Shown here: piece by piece, positions 38,689-62,539 of the stretch
How the letters are laid out: every line of letters starts with the position of its first letter
Position numbering within the stretch: position 1 is the stretch's first letter
Source of the DNA: Spisula solida
Taxonomy: Eukaryota; Mollusca; Bivalvia; Venerida; Mactridae
Reading direction: 5' to 3'
Assembly (NCBI GenBank): GCA_947247005.1
Contig: OX365953.1
Coordinates: forward strand, 6,391,001 to 6,455,000
Length of the DNA: 64,000 nt
Made by a program: the position numbers and the translations under genes
The notes under the pieces: generated by a model
Told to the model about the DNA's origin: nothing
Seen by the model: the letters and a program-made list of their open reading frames with translations, nothing else
Databases searched by the model: none

Positions 38689-38737
38689 ATGGCGGCCGTT
38701 ACGAAGGCGGATGAATTTGCTGTATTTTCAATTGCCG
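38689..38737 (+). CDS. Ankyrin gene exon 1
   Basis: 49 nt, MAAVTKADEFAVFSIA plus one base; the donor is GTATGA. The ATG lies in a YY1-like AAGATGGCGGC. The phase fits exon 2 (G|AT = Asp). Confidence 0.8.
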
Positions 38738-41700
38738 GTATGAGTTATGCGGTCGACAATTTTTGATGTACTATTTCAATTATTTAGAGAACGATTGTGT
38801 ACAAACTTTAAGTGCAACTTTTTAAAACGTTTTCTCATCCAGACGGAGAGAAAATATTTGCAATTTGATGTGTAATTGAAAATATTTCTAAAATGTAGAA
38901 CTATATTTTGTCAGGTGCGCGCATGTATTATGGGAAATAAATAATAATGGCTTCCTACAAGTCAATGTTCGAAATTGACCGTTTATTCTATGTGTAGACG
39001 ATACAATAATGACGATGAAAAACAAATACTGGATGCATTCACTAGATATTTTATATTTTGTACCAGGGGAGGGAGAAAGTCTCCTGACTTAACGAGAAAA
39101 TCTTGAAAATGGTCATCAAACGAAAAGGTAGGGTGAATGACCTAGTTTCTGGTGATGTTTACATTTGTTTGTTTAATGATTCGACATCTTTGTGCTTTCA
39201 AACCTTAATTATATTGGTTGTCAACCTTAAAAATGTCTTAATCTATGTGATATCCACACAGTTACGCTCTATATCTTTGAACTTGAAAATAAATGTTGCT
39301 GATACTGAGAGTCAAAATTGTGATTTTTGCAGCAACATGTCCTTGCCTGTTACTTTCATGGGTTTCGAGTTTAAGAGATAAATTGCTGGTTGATTTGTGT
39401 ACTCAGTAATATAACATATGCGTCTATTATCATAGCTGTTTAAAATTTATAATGATTCTCATTCTGACTCGTACACAAATTATTATCACAATATTCTCAT
39501 TTTTTGTTGCCAGGGTAATTATGACAACAACCTCTTTTCAAAATGAAAGTAGAAAAGTTACACTTTGTACATGCAAGCACTGTTCATCCTTTTCTATTGT
39601 TTCTTTTGTCTAGGTTTGATGGTATGCATTACTTTTTATGAAATAAGTACAGGCTTTTTGAACTTATGATATTGAGTGCAATTTATAGTTTAACATTATG
39701 ATTATTATTTGGCATAAATCATTAAATGATGAAATGGAAGAATTACACATGTATTAAGATACATTTAATTAATTCATAAAAACTTTTTAAAGATATAATT
39801 TAGACCTATGCTGTGCAGACAATTTTTCGGCAAGTTTTACTTTTTAAAAATGTTTTGTTTTTCAGATTTTCAAAAGGCTGCAGCATTTATTCACGAGTTT
39901 CTGTTAAAGCTACATGAGGATTCAGAATGTGCGGAACTCAGAGATTCACTGAATCTTGCTCTTTTGCACATGCAAAAGTACTACAGGATATTACAAACTC
40001 GAAATCAAGAGAAACATTTAGCTACAAACTTATCACTTACTGCAAGGGGGCTAAGCCCCATGACACCATTTGTTGATGCACCTGATAAGTTTCAATACAA
40101 ATGGATAAATTTAGACAGTGCACGTTTGAAAGCCTCAATGGCTATGGACGAGAGTATGGCCCTGACAGTGTTACCCGCCATTATTCAAGCTGCCAAAGAA
40201 GGAAATACTGACCTTATAAATGAATTAGTAACTTCAGGTATATTTATAAGTATAATATATTATTTCAATTCACACGTATTACTATTTGATGATTATAAAC
40301 ACATGGTTACTGTTTTATTATAGCACTTACGGAAATGTTAAACTTACGTTCAAATCTAAATTCTTTATGTATCATCAACGGCTGCACATAGATTGGCGGG
40401 TTGCTTAATATTAAGTATTTCTCAGTCAACGAACCCCTACAAACAATATCTGAGCCCAGGGTGTAGATTTTAACGAATACTTTAGAATTCAAATTTGAAC
40501 GTGAGTTAACAATTTCTGTAAGTGCTTTGATAAAATAGTACCATGGTGAATAGTAACTTGTATCAACTTTTATTTTGTTGTAAATTGTTTATACTCATAC
40601 AAAAGAAACAGTGCCAATCATGAATGGCCCATTTGTTTGTAAAAACTGAAATCCACTAATACCGTATCTATAGCCAGTCAGTGAATAAAAATACATAGAT
40701 CTACCCAAACCCTGAAGATAAACCGAAAACCAAAATTATATTTGACAATTTTACATTATTTTTTTTGTAAAACATTCACTAAGTTTTTAGTTCTCTTCAT
40801 AAATTGACGTTTTTTCATGCTTTCAGAATTTCTTAGTTCAATGTGCTATAATTGCGGCAATGTGCTATATATATTTGTGATGTGTTTTAATGTGTTTCTT
40901 CGCAGAGCCAGCATGTATAGATGATCAGGATGGTCTAGGTCGTACTGCTTTATCCTACGCTGTACACTTCCAACAGATGGAAGCATTGCTGTGCTTATTA
41001 GAAAATGAAGCCAATCCAAATGTATCTGCCCATGGTAAGGTCATTCATTTAATTTATATGCAAGCCATTAAAAATGGTTGGTTTTGTGTATCTCTTCATA
41101 CAGAAAAGATTGTAAAAGTAGCAGTCTTTAATGGTTTTAATCCTTTTAAAAACAAAATCTATATTTGTTATGTTTGATACTCTTCCTATGTTTTTGACAG
41201 GGTTCCCACATTCCGGGAAAAACATTTTTCATGCAGGGAAAAGTTAGGAAATTGTGCAAAACTCAGGGAATTATTTATAGCTGTTGATCAATGTCATTTG
41301 AATTTTCCTATGAAGAAAATATCAAAAGACTATGCTTGCTTGAGATAATTCTAGATTATATTAATAACTTTATGTCAATAAAAAGTTCTAAAACTGCTGC
41401 TTTAAACTTTATGTCTGTATATTATATGCTCTTATATTGACTGTATTGTACAGAGAATTTGATGTGATCCTGGACCTTCTTTTAGCATAACTTGACAGCT
41501 AATATCTTGTCTATAATTATTACCCCAGCGGAGAGTATATCACAAAGACACTTGAGGTGTAACACAAACGCAAATTTAAACAACCAATATTTAAACAACC
41601 AATATTGCACAATTGCTTGCAGAAATTTATATATTCAATGCGAGAACTTTGTTTTATATTCATGCATTATAAAGGTAAGGATCACATCAATATCTCCATA

Positions 41701-44700
41701 CTATAAATACTGTATGAACTGTACACTTTGTGTTCTGTCAATAAAGTTACTGTCAGTGACACTCTTGTTAATTTACAACATATTTTTATGATAATCTTAG
41801 TTAAAATAAAAACTCATAAACAGGTTAATAAATTATCTACAAGTAATATGTAATACATAGACTATTACTGAGACAACGCAAAATGTACATGTTAAATAAT
41901 GGGTTGGTATAAAGGTTTAACAAACATTCAGGGGTTCCATTTGACTCGGGGTAGGGGTTTTGAGCCATGAAATTTCCAAAAAGCCAGATTTTGACCCTCA
42001 AGATTTTGGTTTTTCTCTTAAAATCATGGGTATTTTGTCTGTAAAATGGTAAAAATTAAGTCAAAAGTATGAAAATGACCCTTCAGATTCAGAAACTAGT
42101 GGAATCCCTAACATATGTTTATTTAGGCCTGATTGTATTTTGATTTTCTATATTTATTGTGTTACAGATGGTTCAACGGCCATACATCAAGCTTGTCATG
42201 ATTCTAACAGTCAGGCTTTAAGTATGTTGTTACAGTATGGTGGAGACTTCACGATACCCGACACACAGGGCCGGGCACCAATACACTGGACTTGTACTAC
42301 GCCCAACCTCGATTGTTTACAGGTAATTGTCATAGTATTACATTCATATGTGTGTTTTTATTATTGTGTTGTACCTAATCAGAGTTGGCATAAACGTGGG
42401 TGGGAAAAACCGGGCGGTCAATACTTTGCCAACCCTGTAGCTAAGTGTAGTGTACATTATTACTTCTGTATTATTGAGTACAATAAATAAGGGAGTATGT
42501 GGAACCACACGACTAAACAACGGAGGTGTTTATCATTTTATTATTACCGACGTTTCGGCTTAACACTTAAGCCTTCATCAGGGTTTCTGTATTATTGTAT
42601 AATTCTCCTGTTTCAAGAGAGGAAGGTCGAAGGTTTGAGCCATGTGGGGAGCAGGAATAACGTTTCCAGTTTTAAAGTAACAATATGAGTATGATGTTCC
42701 CCTTAACAAAATAGATTAAGTAAGAGGTTAAATAGAATAAAACAGGTCTGTGACTAGGGCTGTGGATCGCCTGCCCAGTGAAGATACGATATGTATCTAG
42801 ATACTGCACTCCCGATTCAAGATACATATCTAGATACGTTTAGCTGACCCGTGAAAATAAATATCATCACAGTTTGACAGTAATTACATATATTATAAGT
42901 ACTTTCAACATAAAAAATATATGAAACTCGGAGATGTATTCAATTGTTGAAATCAAAAGTATGGAAAGTTCAGCAAATGCGAAACTAACGACAGTACTGA
43001 CTTTACATGTATGTTGTAAACATTCTTCTTGGGGGAAAGAAATTGAATAGATTTTAAATGAATTGTGATATTTTAGCTGCCAATAGGACACAATCGTATT
43101 GGGCCTATCAGATCGCGATTCACCAGTTCATCGTTACAGCCCTATCTGTGACATGTTTAGGATTCAAATATATTAGGCCAGGCCCCCATAATTATGTAAG
43201 ATTCGCCTTTAACACTGAATGCTTGATTGAACTTGAGGTTGAAAGTAGTCCCATGTTATTTAATCACATAACCTAATAAAGCTCACTTGGCATAATAAAG
43301 CAAAAATTTACATGACAGGTCAATTTTGGCGTGATATAAAAGGCCATATGGTAGGATAAAGTGCAATGTTTGCTTATGTTTAGCAGCCTTGAATGTATGG
43401 CTGGTGCATACTATTAAAGGATCATACAATTCCACATCCAAATATGCCCAAAAAGCAATTATCTTTTAATTCAAATGGCTGGTTCTTAAATACCGGGTGG
43501 GGGGGTCACTATGATAAAGTCAACACTTATAGTTTTGAAAATATTAAAATGTTTCCTGTATCAAACCAACTCTAAAAATAATTTGTCGCAATCCTCTAAA
43601 ATGTTTAACTATGTTGTTGCTTTTTCTTTATGTTGAAAACAATTTGTAGCCTTATTATTTTACCCATCCCTTTCCGGGGGGGGGGGGGGGGGGGGGGTGA
43701 GGTGATTTACCTTTTAAATTATATGTCATCAATGATACTTTTACCTGTGGGCTTAACATGTTTCGGAAAAAATAATTTTAATGTTGAGGTCTTATGAAAT
43801 GTAAGTACTTAAACATGATTGTACCGAAAGATCTGTAAACGTTTACCCGATTCAGTTTGTCAGTTATATTCTTAAAATCTCATCAATGAGGGAGGAGAAG
43901 TTTTGATTTGAAAGGTTTAACTCATTTTATTTCAATAATGAAATCAATATTCATCGGTTTCTAATCCTATTCTTTTGTGACTCTGTGTGTATTGTCCATT
44001 GTTGTTGAGAACTATGAAAAAAATTACTTGAAGGCTGAAGATTAAAAATTCATATCAATTATTGAATCAATCCTTTATTTAATATTTATATTAATTTTCA
44101 TAAATAGAAATAAAATGAATAAATCTGCATTTGCAAAGACTTATATATTTGCGAACCTCTCTGTGGATCCAGAGTGGTTGCAATTGTGATAATTCCTACA
44201 GTTGCTAAATTTAATCATTATGTCAGTATATTTTCTATTCATTTTCATATATGCTAATATTTCAGCATTCTTTAAATAGGTTTAATGGCTTTACATTATC
44301 AAACCTTGCGTCAATGGTATGACGGTCATAATCTGAAAATATATTTTATTATACTTATGAATTGGTGTCATGTTTTTTTTGGTGCAATATCACAATTTAA
44401 TTTACTGGACTTGATATGAAGTAGATACATGTAATAGTATATGTTTGGGACAAGAGGTTTATAATATGAAACATTAAAAAATGAGTTTACAACAGTTACT
44501 CACACACTGAATAATGTTATTTTACAATTTGATGATTTATCACGATTTATTTTTATGCCCCCCTATCGATAGATGGGGAGGCATATAGTGATTCACCTGT
44601 CCGTCTGTTCATCCGTTCGTCTGTCCGTCCTGGTTAACCCAAATTGACCGTTTCTTCTAGCATTAATATGGCTTGCTACAAAGCTTTCATACTTGCATGG

Positions 44701-47700
44701 ATGTTGTGTATGAACACTCTCCACAAGACACTATCACCTGACCCCATTTTGACCTTCACCATGACCTAATTTTGGACTTAGACTTATTTATGGACAAGGC
44801 TTCCACAGGGGGCATAAGCGTTTATTGAACGCAGTCTTGTTTACACTCTGAAAAAGTTACAGTGCGCTTACTTTTCACAATTTTGAGAACTTTCACAAAT
44901 CAGAACGGCTTGGGACTCGTCATAATTCAGTGAATAAAGCCCTGATAACTTAAACCTGCACGTACATTTTGTAACATATAGAACTACCTGCTGTTAGCAG
45001 TCACAGCAGTCACATTTTAAGGCCAAAAATAGAATATTTTTGTTACCCCAGGGCCTCTCCGACCCTGACCGATAAGGGAACTTGGGTAAGTAGGTAAATC
45101 GATTTTTTTTTGGAAAAATTTTATGTCAATATTTTTTGTTTTCGAACTTGGGTAGGAAGGGAAGGGGAAACAAACAATATTTTATTTTTGGCCTAACTGT
45201 CTGCTTAGGACATGTAAGACAATATTAAGAAGCAGCATTTATCTGGCGTGGCTGTTATAAATCTCTGACTGATATTGACTGACAATTTTTTTCAAAATTC
45301 CTTCTTGTGTTTCAGTTATTAATTCAACACCATGCGGATGTGAATATTCGTGACAAGGACGGCCTGTCCCCGTGTATGTGGGCGTGTCGACTAGACCATA
45401 TAGAACATTTTCAGCACTTGTGTCAGGCAGACAATTTTAACGTTGATGATGCCGACGGTATAGAGAGGGATTTAGTGGGTAGAACGTGGATGCATTGGGC
45501 AGTCCGTAGAATGGAGCCACTTGAATGTCTTCAGGTTTGTTTCTTTGATTATTGAATGCAAGGTTCGCACATGCCTTAAAAAGTCCTTGAATTTGGTCCA
45601 AACCTTGAAAAGTACTTAAATTTAATGCTACCTTGATAAAAAAGGGCCTAAATGGTACTTGAATTTAACTGCAGGGGTGTCAATATTCCTGATTAATCCG
45701 GATTTTAATTTTTATCATTCCTGAAAAAGCAATGGCTGCTGACCAAAATAAAAGTTATAACTTGATGAAAATATCTCCGGAAATGGCAAAGTTATGGTCA
45801 ATTACATCTGCTCTAAAGGATTTTCTTTAATACAAACTGAGTTATTTATGGAAATGATGTCATTGAAGGACTCTTGTTTGGTAAAAATGGTCAACTGCAT
45901 ACGATTTTCCTGATTTTTAATTTGGCCCTGTTGACACCCCTGTAACTGATAATCCTTGAATTCTGACAAACAGCCTTGAATATCCATAAAAGTTTATGGA
46001 TGTTGTCATGATGTCTCATAATTTGCTTAAAAATGAAACAGAAACACTCTCTGTTCTCAAAAATTGTAAGTACAGAAATGTATGGGTGCAAATGTCACTG
46101 GAAATTAACACAGACACTTGGGGTCTGGACCACGCCCCCCTCCCGCTATGCGCCTGGAAATATTTTTTAATATGTCTTATATATCCAGTCCCATTCAGTA
46201 ATCACACAAACATTTGTTATGTGTATTTGATACTAATACAAAAATATACGTAATTCCTTTACTACTTAAATAACACATGTGTTATTAAGCTAGAGAGGCA
46301 TTATGAATATTTTTTATTTGTCGCGGATACATTTAATAATGTTTGTGTGATTAATGTATGGGTCTGGGTATACAATGTTTATGATACAAATATATCCAGG
46401 TGCGTAGCTGGGGGGCGGGGTCCCGACCCCAAGTGTCTGTGGAAATTAATTGTGATAAATTGAGTGAAGCGGTTATTCTTGTGTATGACATCACTAGAAA
46501 TAGTGTATAAAATTGCAGCACATAATGACATTTTTGTACAACAGGCTCGGTCAGGCTCCAATCATTAAATAGATTTGTTATGTGTGACAGGGCCTATAAA
46601 CATATCCATAACACTTTCAGACACTACTAACGATAGACACTGCAGCCATCAAAGATGAGGAGGGTAGAACTGTTTTATTGACTGCGGCAGAAATGGGTAA
46701 GTCTGATCATCTAAATATGGCTTAGATGGTGCACCTCAGTGCATGCTAACCGTGAATTATGTCTAATAATAAAGATTTTATGAGCCAGTCCCCAGGAAAA
46801 CTCACTATTTTGACGTTATGTAATTATTGTATGCAATAAGGTTAACCGTTAAGTTTGAAAAAGCTCTAAAATAAGAAAAAAATGACAACACATTTACCCA
46901 TAAAGCACTATATCTTAGCTCAGCTAAGCTTTACAGGAATTATTTTGAAAATTTTGCTGTGGGGAGGATGGAATGACAAAAATTACAAGAGACTATTTAT
47001 AGGCCCTAGGTTGTTCACCCAAGGCAGTTGAGCCCACTTAGTACCCTTTTTGGCCCTCTTGTTATATTTCCATTCCCTGCTTCAGATAGCAAAATGTTTT
47101 AAAATCCTGTGAAACCTAAGAAATAAAAACTTTTGGCCTTATTTACTTACAAATCATGAAATGTAGTATGCATCATCTATTTGGTTTGGAATGCTTGTCG
47201 TGGACAAATCAATATCTTTCTATTTACAATGCAATGTAGTGAAAGGTATGATGCAAGTCAATTTAATGATGCAAGTCAATTTAATTCATCACTTTATGAT
47301 GCATGTCATGACTCATCCTTTGAATTGATGATGTCACCTAGGTGCACAGTGAAATTGCCAATTACTGTTAAATATTGCTTATTTGTGAGAATCAGATGTC
47401 AATTTTTCATGGATTTCTTATCTTGACAATGAAATAAATCTCCCTCAAAATTAAAAGAATTCTTTAGTCTGCTTTAATGCTGAAAATTGGAAATCTACAG
47501 ATAAGCAACCCCACAATTTCAGTTTCAATTTTAGTTAAATCCTCAAACTTAACTCACAAATTGAAATGATTTTACAGTAAAGGAGTACTAATATTTGTTT
47601 ATCATTGATGTATTTGATTTGATTTCCAAGCTTGCTGGCAAATGAGGATAAATACATTCATCAATTTGTCTTTTCAATTATATAAACTTCAATAACTGGT

Positions 47701-50700
47701 CGTTTTATTTGTAGGGTGTGCTATAGGATCGGCACGATTACTCGGTTAATTGGATATGATTCGATTGCAAAGTGAAATCGGTTTAAATTTTGCAAAACTG
47801 CTCATCATTTTAAAACAATAAACATCCTACAATGCCAATACAGTGCAGGTTACTGCGTGTATACAATATATCTCTGACAACAATCTGCCTGAATGTGTTG
47901 ATTGACACATAAACAAGCAAATAAGCTGTGTGTTTGGGCAACATATGATACATTAATCCATATATGATCATATTTAACATACAAATTATATTTTGGTTTT
48001 GTATACCTTGAAGGATAAAATAAACACACACTATTAGAGTTATGTATACCCAGTGACCTTTCAGGAGACATGTCTATGTTTTTAGCTCACCTGTCACAAA
48101 GTGACAGTTGAGCTTTTGTGATCGCTCTTCGTCCATCGTCCGTCCTCAATTTCTTGTGAACACACTAGAGAACACCCTTATGGCCCAATCTTCATGAAAC
48201 TTGGTCAGAATGTTTGTCTCTATGAAATCTAGGTCAAGTTCGAAACTTGGTCATGTGAGGTCAAAAACTAGGTCACTAGGTCAAATCTTAGAATACGCAT
48301 GTGAACACATTAGAGGACACAATTATGGCTTAATTTTCATGAAACTTTCGAAACTGGGTCATGTGGGGTCAAAAACTCAAGTCACTAGGTCACATCTTAG
48401 AAAAAACTTGCAATAGAGGCTGAATTTTCCTGAATCTTATTCATAAATATAAATGATTACTAAGGTCACCACAGGGCTTGCATGCACTACTATGATAGGT
48501 GAGCGACCTAGGGCCCTTTTGGCTCTCTTGTACATTATTACACTATGAGTGTATGTGAAATAATAATAGAAAGTAAATGCTTACCTACCTATACCCACCT
48601 AAGTTTTAGGTGAGGTAACTCCAAACTTAGAACTTTTTAAGGTATACCCTACAATGTATAATGTCAAGAGATGGTTCTAACCGTGCACCAATGTTCACTA
48701 TTTCAGGTTCACTAGCAGCGTGTAAGATTATACTAGATATCGGTAGTATGCAATGTATCATAGATCGTGACTACCAAGGGTCTAATCGTGCACCAATGTT
48801 CACTATTTCAGGTTCACTAGCAGCGTGTAAGATAATACTAGATATCGGTGGTATGCAATGTATCACAACTCATGACTATCAAGGGTCTAACCGTGCACCA
48901 ATGTTCACTATTTCAGGTTCACTAGCAGCGTGTAAGATAATACTAGATATCGGTAGTATGCAATGTATCACAAATCATGACTATCAAGGGTCTAACCGTG
49001 CACCAATGTTCACTATTTCAGGTTCACTAGCAGCGTGTAAGATAATACTAGATATCGGTAGTATGCAATGTATCACAAATCATGACTATCAAGGGTCTAA
49101 CCGTGCACCAATGTTCACTATTTCAGGTTCACTAGCAGCGTGTAAGATAATACTAGATATCGGTGGTATGCAATGTATCACAGATCGTGATTACCAAGGT
49201 CGGAACGCTCTACATCTAGCAACCATTGGTGGTCATGGTGATGTCGTCAACTTCTTGTTAGATCATTCAGGTACTATAAAATATACCACTTAATATTCAC
49301 CTGGGTACTGTTTTATCAAAGCACTTACGAAAATCTTAACGTTACGTTTAAATTTAAATTCTTTATAACTCGGCTACAAAATGCAGAGGTGTCAATATTC
49401 CTGATTTATCTGGAATTCCGAATTTATCATTCCTGAACGAGCAATTGCTTCTGACCAAAATAAAAGTTATTTGATGAATATATCTCAAAAAATGGCAAAG
49501 ATATGGTAAATTCAATCTGCTCTGAAGGATGTTCTTTGATACAAACTGAATTAATTATGGAAACAATGTCATTGAAAGCCTCTAGTTTGGCAAAAATGGT
49601 TGGCTGCATATGATTTTCCTGATTTTTAATTTGGTCCTGTTGACACCCCTGAAAATGGGGTTAATTGGATGTTGCGATACTAATAATGATTCAGTTAATC
49701 CTACACCCCGTATCTGTCCCGATTATACAGTTGTTAAAAAAATTATAAAGAATTTAAATTTCAACATAGTTTCAGATTTCCGTATGTGCTTTGATAAAAC
49801 AGTACCCTGTGGTCTTCACGAGGGTTGTCTGCAAAAGTCGGAAACATAGATTTTTGCTGCACTGTTATCCAATGATTAACAATTTGCATACACTGATGTT
49901 TTAAAGACATCATTGTTATGGCATCATTGTTATGGCAAAATTTAATGACTACCGGTAGATCTAAAAGTCTGTGTCTATTTATTGCTCTTGAGGTCTGATT
50001 GGTGCACACTTTACGATGTCACCTACGTTCAACTTCAACGTTTTCTTTTGTTTTAGCAACTTAGCTACATTGACTGAAATGATTTTGGATTAAGACGGCA
50101 CATTCTCGTGGATTAAACATGACCGTCAAAAGATCAGAAAATTCCCCTAGATGCCGGAATTCATTGGTTAATTAGGCAGGGAAGATCCCGAATGGTGACG
50201 CAATATGACTCAATTGAACACAAAAAAAGTTCAGAAAGATACACAACACATATTTTAATTTTCCGATAAGACATTATGTGCAACAGTTAACCAGATGCTA
50301 ACTTTAGCCACCACATTTTACCATCGATGATATGGATTTTCACTTCTGTTACATGGGTCCTATTATTCCGGAATACTCCGAAATCCGGATTTGCTGCACT
50401 AGAAAGAATGAACAATCCTGTTGAAGATAAAAGTTATTTGGTTAAAAAATTCAAAGAGTTGACAAAGTTATGGCCATTTGATGTTTCATAACTGAATTTT
50501 ATTCCATGTTTAAACCATGTTTGAAACAGAGTTTTGCTGTAGGGATGTATGGTAATACCACACAGAACAGACTTGCGATTAATTTTCAGGATTGGGTATT
50601 TTGCCTCAGTAGGACCCTGTGTTAGTTGGAGGTTAACTTAAATTGGTACTAACTTCAACCAAGATTGCTTCAGCATAGTAACTATTGCTTAAAACATAAT

Positions 50701-53700
50701 TTTTTTTGTTTTTGTGGAATTCCAAACAATATTTTCCATTTTCAGCTGATCTCTCGACTGTTGATAAATTCAATGCTACTCCGTGGGATTATGCTAAAAA
50801 TAGACAACTACATTACTGTCAGCTGATTATCATGTCACACCAGCGACAGCGTCTCGTCAGCAATCCCGCTAGTCCACTACCTAATGGTTTCGGTTTAATG
50901 ATGAACGGATCCCTGTCATTTTATAAAGGGGACTTTGATGCTAGCACTGATTTCGACTACGCTGTAAGTAGCTTTTGATACTAGATAAGGTTCACAGAAA
51001 ATATTGCCTCATAATTCATATTTTAAAAATTTGGTCTGTAGGTAGGAAATTAAAAATATTGTATCATGAAACACTGAGCAGGGGTCCAACTATATCTGAA
51101 TAATCTGGAAATCAGGATTTGCTGAAACAGAAAGAATGAACTATGTTGCAGAAAATGAAAGTTATTTGATGAAAAAATACCAAGTGTTGACTGGCTTATG
51201 GCCGTTTAAAATTTCTTATATGCTGAATTTTGACAATAAACCAAAGTTTAAAACCAAGTTTTTGTGTAGGGATGGCACTAAAACAGACTTGCATCTTATT
51301 TTCAGGATTGGGCATTATGCCTGAGAACTTCAGACGTAGTCAAAACTAGGAATATTTGAGAAATTAGCTGCTTATAACTACATGCAGCTCACAGATGTAT
51401 TTCATTGTCTTAAGTTTTGTAAGGTGTTAAAACTATATTACAGGGGTTCTACACTTCCAGATTAATCCGGAATTCCGGATTTGCTGCTTTAGAAAGAATG
51501 AACTTTTCTTCAAAAAATGAAAGTTATTTTATGAAAAAATACCAAGTATTGACTGAGTTATGATCATTTGAAATTCTATATGCTAAATTTTGACAATAGA
51601 ACAATGTTTGAAACGAAGGTTTAGTGTTGGGATGTGTGCTAATGGCATCCAAAACATATGTGCGTCTTATTTTCAGGATTGGGCATTAGGCTTCAGTAGA
51701 ACCCCTGATATTATTGAATATTAGACTCGATACTTGGTATATTTCAGAGTACACGAGGAAGTGTTGACAGCATGCCTATAACACCACCACATCCTCCAAA
51801 ACGACCGAGGACCATGCGAAATGTACGGCGGTCTCGAAGTTTAGGATCACAAGACCGAGACAGGGAAAGGATCAATTCTACTCTGAACTCGACGCTCAAC
51901 TCGACGCTCAACAGTCGAGAATCAACAATGTCCACCATCAATGGTCCGCTACGACGGGAACAATATAATTCAACGTTTATGAGCAGAGAGTCTAGTATGT
52001 CTACAATAGATGGGAATCAGAGGCGATTAATGAACAGCGCTGGTGATATGCAAGCTCGAAATAATGAAAGTCGACCCAATGAAAGAATAGAGGTATGCAG
52101 TACCAGTTTTAACTATATCTCATAAGGACTCAACAAAATAAAATTGCTGTCCTGGGTACTGTTTTATCAAAGCACTTACGGAAATTGTAAAGTTACGCAC
52201 AAATTTAAATTCTTCATAATTCATGAACAAATACACATTAGGAACATATGTGGTTTGAGGGAATACATTTACTGAAACATCATTAATCATTACAGTCCGC
52301 CTTAATACCATTTGCAACTGTTAATGAATTACACAGGGTTTTAATTAGAGTGTTACTTTAAGATTAGCTTAAGTGCTTTGATAAAACAGTACCCTGGTAA
52401 CCCTACCTACCCTTTTTCTCTGCTCCTATCATAAATTATTTTTGGCATGTTGCTTTAAGTCAAAATAGATTTCCAGTTCATAAGCTGTATTAACGAATTA
52501 AAAAAAATAAGTTTTTCATACACCTTCAGAATTGGTCCCTTGATCGGACTCAACTTAATAGCTAAGAAAGTAAGACTCAGAAGTACGAAACATCAATACA
52601 AATGTAGTGGAATATTGCAAGTATTTCATCCTTGGACCCCTGATAAATCTAAAAAGCCACATTTTGACCCCTAGGGTTTTGATGAAGGATAGTACCATTT
52701 CATCATTTCAAGGGCAGCAACTCTGCTAATACTGGTCAGATCTGAATCAAAATATGTAGGTGGGCAACTTCACATACTGACAAATATGCCTACAAAATTT
52801 GAAGACTAGCTCAATTACTGTTAGAATTATGATCGACTCAAGCAAAAATTAATATTTTCAAGGGCAAAAACTCTGCTAATACTAGTTGGTAAGAAGTATT
52901 GCTTTAAAATTTAAAGGGTAAAATCTAGAACAAAATTATTCGAACTCACTCTTGAGAATCTGTTCCCTAGTGGAACCCCTGGCAGTATTGCTATTGTTGT
53001 GTATGTTACTGTATACATTGGTCAGCATGTATTACTTATAGGCCTCAAGACATACACTCAAAATTGCAAGAATCATTAATTGGTGCAATCATAACTCAAT
53101 GTTTTAAATAGCACAAAAACTAAAGCCTTGATCATATCAGCATCTCACAAACATAACATGCATGTACCCCTTACCCTTCAAAATGACCACTAGCAGTTTT
53201 CCACAACAGAAAAACTCCTTGGAGTACATATTGATAACAATCTTAACTTCAACACACATATTGAATAAACCCTTAAAAAATGCAACTCTCTTCTCTTTCT
53301 CCTCCTGAGAATAAAATGCTATCTTGACCAGAAAACCGGATTTTTTTTCTTTCAATTCCTATATTCTTCCTCATCTTGACTACTGTTACAGTATCACAAT
53401 ATGGGGAAATTCAACTTGTCATCTCCTTGACATGCTATTAAAATTTCAAAAACGTGCTGCAAGAATTATTCTTGACAAGACTTTGATTCACCATCTGCAT
53501 AGCTTTTTCAGAGCCTGAGATGGATGACTGTCTATGAAAGAATAGATTATAAAAAGGTCATTCTTGTATTTAAAAGCTTGACCAATACGGCTCCAGAATA
53601 CCTTAGTTCAAAATTTCAAAATACAAATTACCCAAATCAAACATTAAAGTCAGCCACAAACAATCTCCTATACATGCCTAAACCTAATCTAGAAATCTTC

Positions 53701-56700: not shown

Positions 56701-59700
56701 TGTTATTCAGATGAAGTCTTAGAGCCGGACGATGATCTAGATGGTGTGAGTGTTGGTGGTATGGACGTATCAGATATAGAAGATGAAGACCATATGCAAC
56801 ATCACTCGAGTGGACCGCCTACAAGACGGGCACCAGGTCATCAAGGCCCTAGACCTTCTGCACCACCGGGGCCACAACCCAACTTCCAGCCGTCTCCGCC
56901 TCCAAAATATGCTCCTCGTCCTCCGGGGGTGTCAAGTAGTGCACCACAGTCTATGGTAAGTGTATGATGATGATAACCAGGCCCTTCCTCAAAATGTTTT
57001 TAAGGCACTGGGGCATTGGGCTGGGATTTGTGCTAAAGGAGATCGACCAGAATGGCTGAAATGTTTTAAAAGAGAAAACTGCATAGTTTTTGTCGAGCCC
57101 GCTTGCGGTGAGCGAGGCTTAGTCGCCACTTTTGGTGTATGTCCATGCGTCCGTCCGATTTTGTCCGGACCATAACTTTGTCATGCTTTGACCAATGTTG
57201 CTTATATTTGGCATGAATGTTAACCTCCATCAGGAGGAGTGTCATGCCCAACCCCAGGTTCCTATCTCAAAGGTCAAGGTCACAGTTGGAGGTCAAAGGT
57301 CAAATTGAAGCTTGTCCGGACCATAACTTTATCATGCTTTGACCTATGTTGCTTATATTTGGCATGAATGTTCACCTCCATGAGGAGGAGTGTCATGCCC
57401 AATCCTCAGATTCCTATCTCAAAGGTCAAGGTCACAGTTGGAGGTCAAAGGTCAAATTGAAGCTTGTCCGGACCATAACTTTGTCATGCTTTGACCAATG
57501 TTGCTTATATATGGCATGAATGTTCACCTCCATGAGGAGGAGTGTCATGCCCAACCCCAGGTTCCTATCTCAAAGGTCAAGGTCACAGTTGGAGGTCAAA
57601 GGTCAAATTGAAGCTTGTCCGGACCATAACTTTGTCATGCTTTGTCCAATGTTGCTTATATTTGGCATAAATGTTTACCTCCATGAGGAGGAGTGTCATG
57701 CCCAACCCCCAGGTTCCTATCTCAAAGGTCAAGGTCACAGTTGGAGGTCAAAGGTCAAATTGAAGCTTGTCCGGACCATTTCTTTATTATGCTTTGACCA
57801 ATGATGCTTATATTTGGCATGAATGTTAACCTCCATGAGGAGGAGTGTCATGCCTAACCCCCAGATGCCTATCTCAAAGGTCAAGGTCACAGTTGGAGGT
57901 CAAAGGTCAAATTGAAGCTTGTCCGGACCATACCTTTGTCATACATAGACCAATCTTTCTTATATTTGGCATGAATGTTAACCTCCATGAGGTGGAGTGT
58001 CATGCCCAACCCCCAGGTTCCTATCTCAAAGGTCAAGGTCACAGTTGAAGGTCAAAGATCAAATTGAAGGCTAATTTAAGTTGTAGCCATTTTTCAACGT
58101 GCGCCGAGGCTCGACATAATTTGCCTGAGGCACGAATTTCTAGTTTCATAATTTAAAGGCTGGTTTAAGCAATTTTTACATAATAAAGGCCATAGTCTCT
58201 CCAATAACACAATACTGAACCAAAAATATTAGCACCCACAGTGATTTAAAGACACCATACCATACTTCTGCCCCTGGGAAAGGGCCTGATAACAGTATCA
58301 AACTCTGCAACTATCGGTAATACGCTGCTAGAGGAACAATTTGAACAGATCGAAACTTGCATGAAAGAGTTCATGAGCATGATTATATTGTGCATTTATC
58401 GAACTTGTTAGTAGAGCAGAATTTAACAATAGAAATTTTATGTACAGTAGGGATGTGAAATAATGCCACTCGAAACAGACTTGAATCTTATTTTCAGGAT
58501 TGGGCATGATCCCTCAGTAAGGCCTCTGTATAATGTACCATAATCATTATGTAAAATGTGATGTAAATATTGATAAATGTTTTTTTAGTCACCAACCAGT
58601 AGGTTTGCCCTCCGTCCATCAGTCTGTCGGTCCGTCCGTCAAAAAATCTGGATCCTGACATAACTCAAACAGTTTCCAAGCTAGGCTTATGAAACTTGGT
58701 ATGTGGATAGGGGGCAATAAGGGGATAATGCATGTCTAAAAATATTTTGATTCTGACAAAAATTGTGGTTGCTATGGCAACAGAAACATTGAAAATGGCT
58801 TAAAACCGGTAGGGGACTTATGTATTGCTTGCAATTCTTAATGACTTGTTTATTTCAGCAACCCTCTTATGGTAGAAGTGCCGATTATCCAGAAGAAAGG
58901 TCATCATTTGACCCGACACAATCCCGTCCTGGTATGCGCTCATCAAATCCACCCCCAGGTGCTCAAAGAGGGCGGGATAATTTCTACAACAGGTCCCCCT
59001 CTCCCAATCCCAATGATACTTTCCCTCCGTCCAATAATAGGCCCCGCCCTGCTCCTAGACCACCCAGAATGCAACCTTCCCCACCCAAACCTCAGCCCCA
59101 ACCTCAAGCTCGTAACACCCCTTCACCTGTCAACAGACCGGGGTCGGGACCAAATCTCAGGGATTTGACAAGTCCGCCATCAGGTGACCAGTCTGGCAGA
59201 GAGAGCAGGCCAGATTCAGCAAGTAGACCACCAGGTAAGGTTAATATTCTAGAAGGTTCGCACATGACTTGAAAACCACTTGAATTTGATGCCTAATACG
59301 TGAAAAGTACTTGAGTTTGACACTGCCAAAAAGTCCTTGAAAAGTACTTAAATTTTGAAATAAGCATAATTTTCTGTAAATTGGCCTAGAATTTTACAAT
59401 TTTTAGCTCCACTATTCGTAGAATAAGGGAAGCTATTGAAGTCACCCGAGCGTCGGCGAAATGCGAATGTTAAAGTTTAGCTACAGGTTTTTTAATCTCT
59501 TATATTTTCAAAGTCCTTTGACATATTGCTTTGATACTTTGCATACTTGTTCACCATATAACACCAACCATACACAGGTGTAGGTTACTATATCAAACAT
59601 TTTGTTGAAATTATGCCCCCTTTTGGACTTTGAAATGCAAATGTTAAAGTTTAGGTACACATTTTTTAACCTCATATATCTTAAAAGTGCAGTGATATAT

Positions 59701-62539
59701 TGCTTTGATACTCTGCATACTTGTTCATCATCTTGACCCCAACCCCTACACAGTAGTAGATAACTATTTAGCATTTTGATGAAATTATGCCCCCTTTTGG
59801 ACTTAGAAATATGCTTATTTGTTCACCTTCATGACCCAGAGGACTTACACATGAGTTGGTAACTGTCCTGCATTTTGTCCAAATTATCTCCCTTTGTCGA
59901 CTTAGAAGCCCGAGGCAACCACTACACAGCAGAGGGTAATGCTGCTGATAAGAAGCATTTTGTTTTGAATATATAATGATTATACTATCCTAGTATGGCA
60001 CTGTGAATAGTGGAGCGCGCTGTTGGTGGACAGCTCTTGTTTAAGTCTTTTCTGAACCTTTTACATAATTATTTTATAATGTCTTTATGCCTGCTTTTCC
60101 TGAAAGAACGGCTAACATATATTTTAGTTATAACTGCACATATTAAGTAATTCTAAGCACCCTCGATGTTTCATTAAATTAACCTACTAGTATATGAATT
60201 CTACAGGTATGCTGGAAGGCAAGAAGATCATGCCACCTCCAATGTTGATGCCATTAGAAAATGCTCCACGACCTAATTTGAACAGGGAAGATAAACCACC
60301 GAAAAAGAAGAAAAAGAAGCGACGTGACAGAGGCTTAGGGATTAATGTTGAAAAAGATATTGATCGTGCCCTTGATGTTTGCTCCCCTCCAGAGCCCCCG
60401 GAGAGTCTAACGCCCCCTAGAGGTTTTGCCGCACCCCTTCATCCACCGCCATCCGCAACATCTAGACCACCAAGGGCACAGTCAGGGATCCCGTCCCCTA
60501 AATACTCAAAGGGAGCACCTCAGAAACATGAAAACAGGTAAACATTAATTAGATGTTGGTCTGATTTCAATGAATGCTCACACGAAATAGTTGGTACCAA
60601 GCCCAGTTGTGCATATTGTCAGGTCTTTTAGATGGGATCATTTTCGCCAGAGTTATGGCCCTTTATGGGAGAGATACTGGTTATATATAGTTAAGAGTCA
60701 ACCCTCCAAAAATTCAGAATTATCAAAATGAATTATTAAATATTATTTCTCAAATTTGCATTAAAAAATGGCCGACATTTAACAACAGGGGAGGTAATTG
60801 TTTTAGGTATGGCAACTATGTGTTCGTAGAAAAAGTGTTAAAACACTGCATTTAACCCGAATAAACTGAAACTGAGTGACCGGTTGGGGAAATTGCAGGC
60901 TTGGGCAGTTTGGTTTTTTCCCCTATTACTTGCCTGGTTGGGAAAATTGTTTTATTATTATGTGTCAGATTTGCCTTTAAATATGACTGTGGCCTTCAAA
61001 GATGGCCGACATTTAAAAACAAAGGATATATAAGTAGCATGTGATTGTTTGTGTCAGGTATGTTGAAGAAAGCATGGATGAAGAGAAGGACGACATTGTT
61101 ATACCCAAAGAGAACCCACCTATGGTGAATGGTCAGGCCTTACCGCTACGTGAGGGGCCGATGAGGTCAGCTAGACCTGGTAAGAGACTCCAACCCATGG
61201 ACACGTCAGACGAGTATGACATGAATGGAAATGTTGAAAATGGAGATAATGTCATGCAGGTAGGATCATAAAGATGTTAAACAAATCAATGGTAAATTTT
61301 GGATTTGAAACTTCATGTACGAATTAGAGAAATGTTGAATTTTTGGATTTGAAACTTCTTGTCTGAATTAGAGAAATTTTGGATTTGAAACTACTTGTCT
61401 GTCAATTAGAGAAAGGTTGAATTTTGGATTCGAAACTTGTCTGAATTAGAGAAAGGTTGAATTTTGGATTTGAAACTTCTTGTCCGAATTAGAGAAATAT
61501 TGAAATTTGGATTTGAAACTTCTTGTCTGAATTAGAGAAAGGTTGAATTTTGGATTCGAAACTTGTCTGAATTAGAGAAAGGTTGAATTTTGGATTCAAA
61601 ACTTCTTGTCCGAATTAGAGAAAGGTTAAATTTTGGATTTGAAACTTGTTTTCTGAATCAGCAAAGACAATAGGTTACTTTAAACTTAATACATATTTCC
61701 TGCAGAAGTAACTTGTCTGAATCAATAATGACTTATTCCGGACAACCGGACATGTGCTAAGCGAAATTTGGATTTGAAACTATTTGTCCGAATTAAAGAA
61801 GTGAATAGTTACTTTATACTCTATTCAGAATACTCAGGATTTCTTTATTTATCATTGCAAAATAAACTAGTACATTGTTTTGTCTACATACTTTTTGAAT
61901 GACCCTCGTATATATATTTCCTGCAGAAGTTACTCGTCCAAATCAATAATTACTTATCCCTGACAGCTGGACAAGTGCTTATTTCACAGTTTGTGTATGG
62001 TTTTGATATTACAACTTTAACTTATGTTTTAAAGGCACTGACTCTATCATAATGTTACTGCATGTATATAATGGCAGATACCTTATATCGTGTGCAATTA
62101 ATTCTCATAAAGTTATGCCAATTAACTTAAACAACTACACAAATTAGTTATCTCCTGAATTTTAAGATTTGTGAATACTTCTTCAGAGTAACAAATTAGC
62201 GAAATTCTTGCCTGTTGTTATGTTTTGCTGGGATCTACATGTAGTATAAGCAAAGTTGTGTGAAAAACTGGACAACCAATCAGATCACACCATATAAAAA
62301 AACTCTTGCCAATGATCAGTAACAGGCAATATGATTGGCTATCCTTATTCTCCAATTAGATAAGGTCAATATTGGATACCAATCATTGTTTCTTTCAAAT
62401 TTTCCTTAATCCTTTTTTGTAGACAAATAATATAAATGATGATGAAGAGGTTGGACCTTTAATACCGCCACCTCAGGGATTCCGTGGTCCGTCAGCAAGA
62501 CCAAATCAAGGGAGACCACTCTCACAGTCTGTTCCACAG
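38689..62539 (+). CDS. Ankyrin-repeat protein with Pro-rich tail (3' end beyond window)
   Basis: Fifteen exons join in phase to 1026 codons without a stop: 38689-38737, 39866-40237, 40906-41034, 42168-42322, 45316-45534, 46621-46696, 49127-49270 (or an earlier acceptor), 50746-50963, 51748-52092, 54279-54378, 56711-56955, 58859-59234, 60207-60537, 61058-61259 and 62423-62539. All introns are GT-AG. Residues 1-115 are mostly helical and charged. About eight ankyrin repeats span residues 120-430 (for example DGLGRTALSYAV, DGSTAIHQACHDS, QGRAPIHWTC, GRTWMHWAV, QGRNALHLAT). After that comes a low-complexity tail: an Arg/Ser section with LNST repeats, an acidic patch (exon 11), long Pro-rich stretches (exons 11-13) and a lysine run PPKKKKKKRR near residue 842 that may be a nuclear signal. 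The layout resembles inversin- or ANKRD55-type scaffolds, but I cannot assign orthology. Probable role: protein-protein scaffold. Confidence 0.9.
39866..40237 (+). CDS. Ankyrin gene exon 2
   Basis: 372 nt, residues 17-140. It encodes the helical N-terminal region (FQKAAAFIHEFLLKL, ALLHMQKYYRI) and the first ankyrin-like helix pair (LPAIIQAAKEGNTDLINELV). The acceptor is GTTTTTCAG and the donor GTATAT. Confidence 0.92.
40304..40543. mobile_element. MITE family B, copy 2 (intron 2)
   Basis: GTTACTGTTTTATTATAGCA plus CTTACGGAAATGTTAAACTT at the left, and the inverse ending AAGTGCTTTGATAAAATAGT then ACC. It starts 67 bp after exon 2 ends. Confidence 0.8.
40906..41034 (+). CDS. Ankyrin gene exon 3
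   Basis: 129 nt, one ankyrin repeat (DDQDGLGRTALSYAVHFQQM then EALLCLLENEANPN). Phase 1 on both ends; the acceptor is TTCTTCGCAG and the donor GTAAGG. Confidence 0.93.
41939..42110 (+). mobile_element. TIR element family N, copy 2 (intron 3)
   Basis: It starts CAGGGGTTCCATTTGACTCG and ends AGTGGAATCCCTA. The interior matches the 30870-31048 copy in opposite orientation. Confidence 0.7.
42168..42322 (+). CDS. Ankyrin gene exon 4
   Basis: 155 nt, repeats DGSTAIHQACHDSNSQALSM and QGRAPIHWTCTTPNLDCLQ. The acceptor is TGTGTTACAG and the donor GTAATT. Confidence 0.93.
42546..42584 (-). ncRNA. Hammerhead-ribozyme-like motif (intron 4)
   Basis: On the minus strand the order is ACC, CTGATGA (42581-42575), a helix GGCTTAA/TTAAGCC with a GTG loop, GAAAC (42556-42552), GTC and GGT. 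This is the hammerhead order: the CUGAUGA core, stem II, the GAAA core, a minimal ACGT stem III and a GUC cleavage triplet, with ACC/GGT beginning stem I. One extra A sits between CUGAUGA and stem II. Very short stem III forms are known in Penelope-like retroelements and related repeats and may act as dimers. Activity is not shown. Confidence 0.5.
43676..43697. repeat. 22-base G homopolymer (intron 4)
   Basis: An uninterrupted run of 22 G on the plus strand, unusual in this AT-rich window. It could form a G-quadruplex or be an assembly length error. Confidence 0.8.
44551..44842 (+). repeat. Dispersed repeat family G, copy 2 (intron 4)
   Basis: TTTTATGCCCCCCTATCGAT at the left, a CCGTCTGTTCATCCGTTCGT tract, GACCTTCACCATGACC, and CATAAGCGTTTATTGAACGC at the right. 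It is the inverse of the PP1-intron copy at 33181-33458. Confidence 0.75.
45021..45193. mobile_element. GGCC-type TIR element (intron 4)
   Basis: It starts GGCCAAAAATAGAATATTTT and ends AACAATATTTTATTTTTGGCC-like; the arms are inverted. It contains GGGTAAGTAGGTAAATCG as in the 35391 element region. Confidence 0.65.
45316..45534 (+). CDS. Ankyrin gene exon 5
   Basis: 219 nt, exactly 73 codons, two repeats (DKDGLSPCMWACRLDHIEHF and GRTWMHWAVRRMEPLECLQ). The acceptor is GTGTTTCAG and the donor GTTTGT. Confidence 0.93.
45560..45660. repeat. Dispersed repeat family E, copy 1 (intron 5)
   Basis: It starts AAGGTTCGCACATGCCTTAA and contains AAAAGTCCTTGAATTTG and CTTGAAAAGTACTTAAATTT. It begins 26 bp after exon 5 ends. 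It matches 59253-59360. Confidence 0.7.
45672..45942 (+). mobile_element. TIR element family C, copy (intron 5)
   Basis: It is bounded by CAGGGGTGTCAA and its exact inverse TTGACACCCCTG. The interior has ACCAAAATAAAAGTTATAAC and CTGATTTTTAATTTGGCC. It is inserted next to (possibly within) a family E repeat, since CCTTGAATTCTGACAAACAG resumes just after it. Confidence 0.8.
46100..46460. repeat. Pair of inverted repeat ends (intron 5)
   Basis: CAGACACTTGGGGTCTGGAC..TGCGCCTGG at 46112-46157 and CCAGGTGCGTAGCTGGGGGG..CCAAGTGTCTG at 46398-46440 are inverted copies about 240 bp apart. They may be two ends of one element or two insertions facing each other. Confidence 0.5.
46621..46696 (+). CDS. 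Ankyrin gene exon 6
   Basis: 76 nt, TLLTIDTAAIKDEEGRTVLL then TAAEM plus one base; the first half of the ankyrin repeat that exon 7 completes. The acceptor is CACTTTCAG and the donor GTAAGT. Confidence 0.9.
46784..46930 (+). repeat. Family K fragment (intron 6)
   Basis: GAGCCAGTCCCCAGGAAAAC, then ATTATGTAA/TTATGTAATTATTGTATG-like sequence, matches the left end of the element at 10117-10714. No right end was found. Confidence 0.6.
48083..48531 (+). repeat. Mollusc-type dispersed repeat (intron 6)
   Basis: It starts TTAGCTCACCTGTCACAAAG and ends GGCCCTTTTGGCTCTCTTG. The interior has repeated CTAGGTCA/AGGTCAAAAACTAGGTCA and TTCATGAAACTT segments, with one internal duplication. I associate this type with bivalve genomes; that is recollection and not a search. 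Confidence 0.65.
48676..49200 (+). repeat. Five-copy 105-bp tandem unit with splice acceptor and half ankyrin repeat
   Basis: Units at 48676, 48781, 48886, 48991 and 49096 are each exactly 105 bp and nearly identical. Each has 31 bp of intron end (TCTAACCGTGCACCAATGTT, then CACTATTTCAG) followed by 74 bp of exon start (GTTCACTAGCAGCGTGTAAG...). All five stay in one open frame. The intron-derived part reads SNRAPMFTIS, ten residues, the same length as the exon 6 segment RTVLLTAAEM it would replace. Differences are few (GSMQC/GGMQC, IIDRD/ITTHD/ITNHD/ITDRD). Confidence 0.9.
49127..49270 (+). CDS. Ankyrin gene exon 7, shortest form
   Basis: 144 nt from the last of five near-identical acceptors. 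It completes the split repeat (GSLAACKIILDIGGMQC..) and adds QGRNALHLATIGGHGDVVNF. The donor GTACTA is weaker than the others. Acceptors at 48707, 48812, 48917 and 49022 would extend the exon in frame by 420, 315, 210 or 105 nt. Confidence 0.85.
49311..49809. mobile_element. MITE family B, copy 3, split by a nested insertion (intron 7)
   Basis: CTGGGTACTGTTTTATCAAA starts it and TTTGATAAAACAGTACCCTG ends it. The family C element (49384-49651) sits inside, so family B arrived first. It starts 41 bp after exon 7 ends. Confidence 0.8.
49384..49651 (+). mobile_element. TIR element family C, nested copy
   Basis: CAGAGGTGTCAATATTCCTG at the left and TTGACACCCCTG at the right, with interior ACCAAAATAAAAGTTATTTG and TTTTCCTGATTTTTAATTTG, match 45672-45942 closely. 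Confidence 0.8.
50353..50619 (+). mobile_element. TIR element family D, copy 1 (intron 7)
   Basis: GGGTCCTATTATTCCGGAAT at the left and CTCAGTAGGACCCTG at the right. The interior has CCGGATTTGCTGCACTAGAA and TTTCAGGATTGGGTATTTTG, shared with the copies at 51079 and 51441. Confidence 0.7.
50746..50963 (+). CDS. Ankyrin gene exon 8
   Basis: 218 nt, last ankyrin repeat (ADLSTVDKFNATPWDYAKNR) and the start of the linker (SHQRQRLVSNPASPLP). The acceptor is CCATTTTCAG and the donor GTAAGT. Confidence 0.92.
51079..51340 (+). mobile_element. TIR element family D, copy 2 (intron 8)
   Basis: It starts CAGGGGTCCAACTATATCTG, with AGAAAGAATGAACTATGTTG and TTTTCAGGATTGGGCATTAT inside. The right end is decayed, so its limit is approximate. 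Confidence 0.6.
51441..51707 (+). mobile_element. TIR element family D, copy 3 (intron 8)
   Basis: It is bounded by CAGGGGTTCTAC and its exact inverse GTAGAACCCCTG. It ends 40 bp before exon 9. Confidence 0.8.
51748..52092 (+). CDS. Ankyrin gene exon 9
   Basis: 345 nt, 115 codons, Arg/Ser/Asn-rich (PPHPPKRPRTMRNVRRSRSL). A 12-bp coding repeat gives LNSTLNSTLNS. MSTI recurs twice after SRES. The acceptor is ATATTTCAG and the donor GTATGC. Confidence 0.9.
52151..52397. mobile_element. MITE family B, copy 4 (intron 9)
   Basis: CCTGGGTACTGTTTTATCAA at the left and GATAAAACAGTACCCTGG at the right, with long inverted arms. It starts 59 bp after exon 9 ends. Confidence 0.85.
53100..54115 (+). pseudogene. 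LINE 3' tail in intron 9
   Basis: The translation shows the ORF2 C-terminal pattern across frame breaks: SYILPHLDYCYSITIWGNS, KFQKRAARIILDKT, then (53524-53841) YERIDYKKVILVFKSLTNTA, KPNLEIFRKSILYAGPKLWN and SLPQNIRNAKTLNTFKTKYI. A stop after SFFRA (53516) separates the two blocks. The 3' end is AATAAATAAAGTC-like near 54090 followed by TTATTATTA. It is related to the 3.6-kb copy and sits in the same orientation as the host gene. It is a decayed insertion and not part of the host coding sequence. Confidence 0.75.
54279..54378 (+). CDS. Ankyrin gene exon 10
   Basis: 100 nt, VSINTRRTASHDGYMNKRNS then NREEVAMATDDNV plus one base. The acceptor is TTATTTTAG and the donor GTAAGT. The phase fits exons 9 and 11. 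Confidence 0.85.
54545..54690 (+). repeat. Dispersed repeat family O, copy 2 (intron 10)
   Basis: It contains TTTTAAGCCGATGATGTTAC, GCTAAAAAGCTGGTGATGCC and GATTTGTTCTCACAGGCAAG, matching the minus-strand copy at 18095-18275. It lies immediately before a family A MITE. Confidence 0.5.
54700..54908. mobile_element. MITE family A, copy 4 (intron 10)
   Basis: TACTGTCCAGTTAGGATATT at the left and CCCTGACTGGACTATA at the right. The interior GTAGAGCGAAGATAGTATGT and CGACCGCTGCGTCAC match copy 2. Confidence 0.8.
55171..56212. mobile_element. pogo/Tigger-like TIR element, non-autonomous (intron 10)
   Basis: It starts TACAGTAAAGTTCC and ends with the exact inverse GGAACTTTACTGTA; TA bounds both ends. 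Both sides carry subterminal GGTCTTAATAGCGAG / GGTCGTAATAGCGG repeats. Such ends are typical of pogo-type elements (family knowledge). No transposase frame is visible in about 1 kb. Confidence 0.7.
56258..56350. repeat. Long hairpin (intron 10)
   Basis: ATTGAATTTATTAAACGAGT then TGAATAAAAT at the left, and ATTTTATTCAACAAGTTTAA then TAAATTGAAT at the right, form arms of about 30 bp around an inner AAAATGC...GCATTTT stem with a CTCTGCTGAG loop. Confidence 0.75.
56711..56955 (+). CDS. Ankyrin gene exon 11
   Basis: 245 nt. An acidic start (EVLEPDDDLDGVSVGGMDVS, DIEDEDH) is followed by a Pro-rich section (GPPTRRAPGHQGPRPSAPPG). The acceptor is TTATTCAG and the donor GTAAGT. Confidence 0.9.
57092..58115 (+). 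mobile_element. Element with GTCGAGCC ends carrying a 152-bp tandem array (intron 11)
   Basis: The outer GTCGAGCC (57092) and GGCTCGAC (to 58115) are exact inverses. Inside, six units of 151-152 bp start at 57163, 57314, 57466, 57617, 57769 and 57921. Each has GTCCGGACCAT, GCTTATATTTGGCATGAATG, CTCCATGAGGAGGAG, TCAAAGGTCAAGGTCACAGT and AGGTCAAAGGTCA. Units are more than 90% alike by eye. Confidence 0.8.
58370..58527 (+). repeat. Family D fragment (intron 11)
   Basis: GTAGGGATGTGAAATAATGC, then CTTATTTTCAGGATTGGGCA and CCCTCAGTAAGGCCTCTG match the right half of family D elements. The left half is degraded. Confidence 0.55.
58586..58851 (+). repeat. Dispersed repeat family H, copy 1, abutting exon 12
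   Basis: Shared with 62805-63070: AAAAAATCTGGATCCTGACA, ATGAAACTTGGTATGTGGAT, GGTAGGGGACTT and TATTGCTTGCAATTC. Its last shared bases (ACTTGTTT) are followed directly by ATTTCAG and exon 12. Confidence 0.75.
58859..59234 (+). CDS. Ankyrin gene exon 12
   Basis: 376 nt, Pro/Ser/Arg-rich (SPSPNPNDTFPPSNNRPRPA, PRPPRMQPSPPKPQPQPQ). The acceptor TTTATTTCAG directly follows a dispersed repeat; the donor is GTAAGG. Confidence 0.9.
59253..59360. repeat. Dispersed repeat family E, copy 2 (intron 12)
   Basis: AAGGTTCGCACATGACTTGA, AAAAAGTCCTTGAAAAGTAC and TTAAATTTTG match copy 1 at 45560. It begins 19 bp after exon 12 ends. Confidence 0.7.
59406..60015. mobile_element. Element with GCTCCACTATTC ends (intron 12)
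   Basis: AGCTCCACTATTC and GAATAGTGGAGC are inverse ends. The interior has two diverged direct copies of a block with ATATTGCTTTGATACT.TGCATACTTGTTCA and ATGCCCCCTTTTGGACTT. It is non-coding. Confidence 0.65.
60207..60537 (+). CDS. Ankyrin gene exon 13
   Basis: 331 nt, with the lysine run PPKKKKKKRRDRG, a helix-like GINVEKDIDRALDVC, and Pro-rich PPEPPESLTPPRGFAAPLHP. The acceptor is TTCTACAG and the donor GTAAAC, in phase 2. Confidence 0.9.
60549..60700 (+). repeat. Dispersed repeat family I, copy 1 (intron 13)
   Basis: TTTCAATGAATGCTCACACG, AGTTGTGCATATTGTCAGG and AGAGTTATGGCCCTTTATGG match 63355-63470. Confidence 0.6.
61058..61259 (+). CDS. Ankyrin gene exon 14
   Basis: 202 nt, acidic and polar (ESMDEEKDDIVIPKENPP, QPMDTSDEYDMNGNVENG). 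The acceptor is TTGTGTCAG and the donor GTAGGA. Confidence 0.88.
61295..61640 (+). repeat. Minisatellite, about 41-46-bp unit, eight copies (intron 14)
   Basis: The unit is TTGGATTTGAAACTTCTTGT followed by CTGAATTAGAGAAAGGTTGA and ATTT. Copies differ in length by 0-5 bp (TTCTTG present or absent). One more isolated unit lies near 61768. It starts about 36 bp after exon 14. Confidence 0.8.
62268..62382. mobile_element. Palindromic MITE family L, copy 2 (intron 14)
   Basis: GGACAACCAATCAGATCACA at the left, CAATATGATTGGCTATCCTT then ATTCTCCAATTAGATAAGGT at the right. It is the inverse of the 21271-21413 copy. Confidence 0.7.
62423..62539 (+). CDS. Ankyrin gene exon 15 (last in window)
   Basis: 117 nt, 39 codons (NDDEEVGPLIPPPQGFRGPS, ARPNQGRPLSQSVPQ). 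The acceptor is TTTTTTGTAG and the donor GTGAGC. There is no stop, so the gene continues to the right. Confidence 0.88.

Follow-up and report, generated by a model that had tools for sequence, protein, structure and literature searches.

Five tandem copies of an intron 6/exon 7 boundary, each with a candidate splice acceptor, in an ankyrin-repeat gene of Spisula solida

Tandem duplication across an intron–exon boundary has been described as a source of intron gain in the potato RdRp gene (Ma, Lan, Niu 2016, PMC4974935). Human segmental-duplication genes carry internal tandem repeats at exon–intron boundaries, and those listed include coding repeats that keep the frame, with units of 62-126 bp (PMC2812944). 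A further route to intron gain, the AGGT duplication model of Rogers, has been reviewed (PMC3443670). Here we describe a structure of this kind in the bivalve Spisula solida, in a window of 64,000 nucleotides (assembly GCA_947247005.1, contig OX365953.1, positions 6,391,001 to 6,455,000 of the forward strand; positions below are counted from the first letter of the window). The plus strand holds a multi-exon gene for a conserved ankyrin-repeat protein, and an array of five tandem units, each with its own acceptor sequence, lies at the boundary of intron 6 and exon 7. With a probability of roughly 0.6, we take this array to be a splice-site minisatellite of recent origin, from which mainly the ancestral protein would be made.

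The array occupies positions 48676-49200 and consists of five 105-bp units arranged head-to-tail without indels; Tandem Repeats Finder (TRF) reports 48676-49199 as a repeat of period 105 and 5.0 copies, with 96% matches, 0% indels and a score of 957. Each unit comprises the 31-bp end of intron 6 followed by the first 74 bp of exon 7, so that direct tandem units span the boundary of the putative exon, as expected of an exon–intron-boundary tandem repeat (ITR). The intron part starts with TCTAAC (TCTAAT in unit 2) and ends with CACTATTTCAG, and all five units present the acceptor CACTATTTCAG/GT. By sequence, each duplicate thus has the branch site, pyrimidine tract and acceptor that intron gain would call for. 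An earlier, sequence-only reading had proposed just this anatomy of intron end, acceptor and partial exon 7 in five tandem units, and both TRF and the alignment of the copies bear it out. The repetition itself is far beyond chance. Against the 932-Mb assembly (36 contigs; best candidates scored), a 105-bp unit found five matches, all inside the array, and a 701-bp query of the region found one. An Rfam scan of the whole window gave nothing at the gathering threshold.

The copies vary at 10 of their 105 sites and differ from one another at 0 to 8. At the breakpoints, GGT stands at both flanks and GGG at all four joins between units, which is consistent with one founding join and subsequent expansion. 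A four-gamete test among the copies shows site 70 to be incompatible with sites 88, 92 and 99, as would result from exchange between copies; either such exchange or parallel mutation has thus taken place. The left flank, which shares CAATGTAT with the unit, was rejected as a decayed sixth copy, its local alignment being no better than that of dinucleotide shuffles (p 0.22-0.52 over four settings). By eye only, the 31 bp show a faint likeness (GGT..AAC) to exon 6 or exon 7 sequence.

These features suggest a model whereby a young, lineage-specific, minisatellite-like tandem duplication arose across the intron 6/exon 7 boundary. In the founding event, the DYQ-G codons of exon 7 would have been joined to intron sequence beginning 31 bp upstream of the acceptor, with a GG(T) common to both breakpoints (microhomology), and later unequal exchange among the copies would have brought the number to five. 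Each unit would then carry all the elements of a 3' splice site, from branch point and pyrimidine tract to CAG, with 74 nt of exon behind it. The main mRNA would most likely be made through the last acceptor, giving a 144-nt exon 7 and restoring the ancestral protein, with copies 1-4 remaining intron. The upstream acceptors would yield minor in-frame isoforms, which could be tolerated because the unit length is divisible by three. Both the mutational route and the choice of acceptor are what we infer; the comparison with orthologues favours the last acceptor.

The first protein search found 391 proteins, the best 120 of which were listed. From the 122 proteins listed, 54 (P0001-P0053 and P0121) were taken as orthologues; identity falls to 29% at P0054, and P0055 and P0056 (34-35% over 86-87%) were also dropped. 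When these 54 were aligned with the product of exon 6 and the last acceptor, no indel was seen in the repeat pair in 51 of the 52 that cover it, and the 31 bp are therefore best read as intron. The sole exception among the 52, the flatworm protein P0048, has 3 extra residues; coverage of the pair is incomplete in P0121 and P0052, the latter with four gap positions in the part it does cover. At the protein level, then, the added units are absent from these relatives. Additionally, the intron-derived unit motif was found in none of the first 60 proteins listed. No protein of S. solida itself was recognised among the database matches, the five closest of those listed being 78-84% identical over exons 1-9, and the species is probably absent from the protein database; the lack of unit-bearing proteins is therefore weak evidence.

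The copies also differ at residues that the orthologues keep. Codon 24 is G in 51 of 53 orthologue letters and S in none, and S is what copies 1, 3 and 4 encode. At codon 30 the orthologues have D (38 of 54) and never the N or T of copies 2-4; at codon 31 they have R (25 of 54) and never H, as in the same three copies. Copy 5 carries G, D and R, the commonest orthologue residues, at these positions. Such a pattern is what one would expect if constraint had been relaxed in copies 1-4 and kept in copy 5. With the junction base set aside, the copies differ at 5 nonsynonymous and 4 synonymous sites, which is indistinguishable from neutral (P 0.13-0.20), so that these counts are uninformative on coding selection.

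Whichever of the five acceptors is joined to exon 6, the product stays in frame without a stop and contains 0 to 4 extra 35-residue units, exactly as the sequence-only reading had it. Depending on the acceptor, exon 7 measures 144, 249, 354, 459 or 564 nt, and the product of exons 1-8 (built with the alternative first exon at 38689) 454, 489, 524, 559 or 594 residues. That reading was also right that the former intron part, encoding the ten residues SNRAPMFTIS, matches in length the portion of the ankyrin repeat contributed by exon 6, within a unit of 35 residues. An open frame is by itself not unlikely: in six of the gene's introns, 48% of stretches of 33 bases are open, and the chance of an open in-frame unit is about 0.16 (48% x 1/3 for a length divisible by three).

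Several points weigh against our reading of the array as a minisatellite spliced mainly at its last acceptor. No copy contains a stop codon, though nine random substitutions would leave the array stop-free with 73-77% likelihood anyway. The residue argument involves few sites. The five array acceptors score alike in a frequency table (4.14, within the span of -0.42 to 8.27 covered by the gene's other 10 putative acceptors), and when 3' sites are identical, splicing can favour whichever lies closest to the upstream donor, as in duplicated-splice-site experiments. Finally, the 35 codons of the unit equal the spacing of the native repeats from DEEG to DYQG, likewise 35, a match for which luck would account, at a post hoc guess, with a few per cent probability. 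Luck and selection are both compatible with this agreement between unit length and the local ankyrin period, which keeps the idea of solenoid growth alive.

If selection were responsible, the upstream acceptors would be used, SNRAPMFTIS would replace the half-repeat of exon 6, and one to four ankyrin-like repeats would have been gained; we consider this unlikely, if the least unlikely of the alternatives. It draws on the open, in-phase units, on their native repeat length and on a Pfam match in the whole 213-residue frame, where Ank_2 (E 6e-9) begins within unit 4 at residue 131 and extends to residue 212 at the native end. The start of this match within unit 4 indicates that the profile tolerates an array-type repeat beside native sequence. 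However, two or three units alone matched no Pfam ankyrin family, their hits being to unrelated families and below threshold. For comparison, the native pair of 68 residues reached 6.2e-12 with Ank_2; a single native repeat alone gives a weak ankyrin match (0.015-0.027). AlphaFold2 modelled the frame alone as strands throughout (predicted local distance difference test, pLDDT, 79; predicted template modelling score, pTM, 0.75), a model that we do not trust because the native ankyrin end was also built as strands. With 34 of the 122 listed proteins aligned (34 orthologues, 35 sequences), the native end became helical (pLDDT 88-95) and the array blocks partly so, at low confidence (35-69). Even these helices are weak evidence, since in the underlying alignment array residues were paired with other ankyrin repeats of the orthologues. 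A search of solved structures matched many ankyrin chains, none of them informative for the array.

Neither model, then, supports an ankyrin fold of the array with confidence, which the sequence-only reading had proposed checking by structure prediction. Its larger claim, that the array is repeat-number growth of a solenoid protein, is weakly supported: the 35-residue match, the absence of stops and the Ank_2 match from unit 4 stand in its favour, and most of the indirect evidence leans the other way, including the unchanged repeat spacing of the orthologues, the absence of the motif from the proteins scanned, the missing ankyrin match of the units alone and the altered residues of copies 1-4. 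A bolder form of the idea is an adjustable ankyrin stack. Here the acceptor array would let one allele make versions with one to five repeats, the first helix would come from former intron, the duplication length would have been selected at exactly one ankyrin period, and, by way of 15-nt microexons, the GTAAGA sequences described below may offer a further level of choice. We regard this as improbable.

A donor-like sequence, CGT/GTAAGA, lies 15 nt into the exon part of every unit; the account given by the sequence-only reading did not include it. Paired with the acceptor of the next unit, it would enclose a segment of 90 nt, whose removal would leave an in-frame microexon of 15 nt. The array could thus represent serial intron gain, in which 90-nt mini-introns are removed and 15-nt SLAAC microexons remain, a scheme that we think doubtful and rank next after the selected gain of ankyrin repeats. 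The presence of GTAAGA in all five units, a branch-point-like CTAAC within the 90-nt segment and the in-frame products with 0 to 4 microexons are consistent with it, and the score of the site (1.27) exceeds that of the putative donor of exon 7 itself (-0.4). That score, taken from the frequency table, nevertheless falls below 12 of the 13 putative donors of the gene (the weakest of these at 1.62), and among 3783 GTs the site comes no higher than the 94.9th percentile. Microexons of 15 nt are, moreover, poorly spliced, which counts against the scheme. In its anatomy it is the same as the potato RdRp intron gain (PMC4974935). In-frame longer isoforms and mini-introns are both possibilities beside a main product that would be made through the last acceptor.

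It is very improbable that the array is an assembly artefact, in which units had been added or lost or two alleles strung together. Units 3 and 4 are indeed identical and all pairs are more than 92% alike, but there are four distinct unit types with marker substitutions, the 932-Mb assembly consists of just 36 contigs, and a single match in it was obtained for the region. The exact number of units may differ between individuals.

The features of the array and of its host gene are collected in Table 1. Among the matches listed, the best are a Ruditapes philippinarum protein and two other sequences, all three with 90% identity across 98% of the first 460 residues, and relatives extend to flatworms, echinoderms and hemichordates. 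The 19-nt exon at 39109-39127 reads ATGGTCATCAAACGAAAAG and encodes the MVIKRK start. In the downstream part of the gene at least one small exon was not located. Exon 9 contains, at 51886-51912, a 12-bp in-frame tandem repeat encoding NSTLNSTLNSTLNS, which was not observed at the corresponding position of the five closest relatives among the matches listed. Two larger arrays lie further downstream: a hierarchical one at 57161-58069 (152-bp unit x six), between the putative exons 56711-56955 and 58859-59234, and one at 59458-59810 (174-bp unit x two, 83% matches), between the latter and 60207-60537. Since TRF finds several other tandem arrays in the window, such duplications appear to be common here. 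In P0122 (129 aa, from a 732-bp contig), exon 6 and exon 7 sequence are joined in one frame, and intron 6 may accordingly be missing in some lineages.

Table 1. Positions of the array units, candidate splice signals and putative exons within the window
Feature	Position	Strand	Remarks
Unit 1	48676..48780	+	acceptor AG ends 48706
Unit 2	48781..48885	+	acceptor AG ends 48811; branch-point-like CTAAT
Unit 3	48886..48990	+	acceptor AG ends 48916
Unit 4	48991..49095	+	identical to unit 3; acceptor AG ends 49021
Unit 5	49096..49200	+	runs on into remaining exon 7; acceptor AG ends 49126
Branch-point-like CTAAC, unit 1	48677..48681	+	same position in units 3-5; CTAAT in unit 2
Donor-like GTAAGA (CGT/GTAAGA, unit position 47)	48722..48727; also 48827, 48932, 49037, 49142	+	one in every unit
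ATG exon, at most an alternative start	38689-38737	+	splices in frame to exon 2
First coding exon (MVIKRK/D), conserved	39109..39127	+	product matches start of Ruditapes P0001
Putative exon	39866-40237	+	
Putative exon	40906-41034	+	
Putative exon	42168-42322	+	
Exon 5, ankyrin repeats	45316..45534	+	
Exon 6	46621..46696	+	ends with first part of ankyrin repeat (DEEGRTVLLTAAEM); donor ATGG/gtaagt
Exon 7 with last acceptor, 144 nt	49127..49270	+	putative donor CAG/gtacta
Exon 8	50746..50963	+	
Exon 9	51748-52092	+	putative
Further putative downstream exons	56711-56955, 58859-59234, 60207-60537	+	

The array amounts to a clean and recent natural experiment, in which five near-identical 3' splice sites stand in series with nearly the same 74 nt of exon after each. 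As such it bears on which of several equal acceptors the mollusc spliceosome prefers, on the birth of mini-introns from duplicated 3' splice sites and on the entry of former intron into a solenoid protein. It resembles the potato RdRp case in the duplication across an intron–exon boundary, the presence of a cryptic exonic GTAAG, which serves as the donor in potato, and the marker sites at which the copies differ (PMC4974935). In potato, however, there are two copies rather than five, and splicing was shown by RNA reads, whereas that of the array is predicted; conversely, every splice choice examined in the array is in frame, and its unit equals the ankyrin period. With the human internal tandem repeats the array shares a recent minisatellite expansion at an exon–intron boundary, which may either stay in the transcript or be removed by splicing (PMC2812944). 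The human cases differ in concerning paralogues and in having units of 30 bp on average, and an acceptor in every unit, as found here, is not described for them in the section available. Because its exon part starts AG/GT, the unit is also formally a GT...AG segment, as in the Rogers model (PMC3443670); unlike in that model, the AG/GT makes a poor donor, CAG/GTTCAC scoring -3.83, below all 13 putative donors of the gene. Given the potato intron gain and the human internal tandem repeats, the kind of event is already known (PMC4974935, PMC2812944), and the local twist lies in a five-fold array of complete acceptors with the period of an ankyrin repeat.
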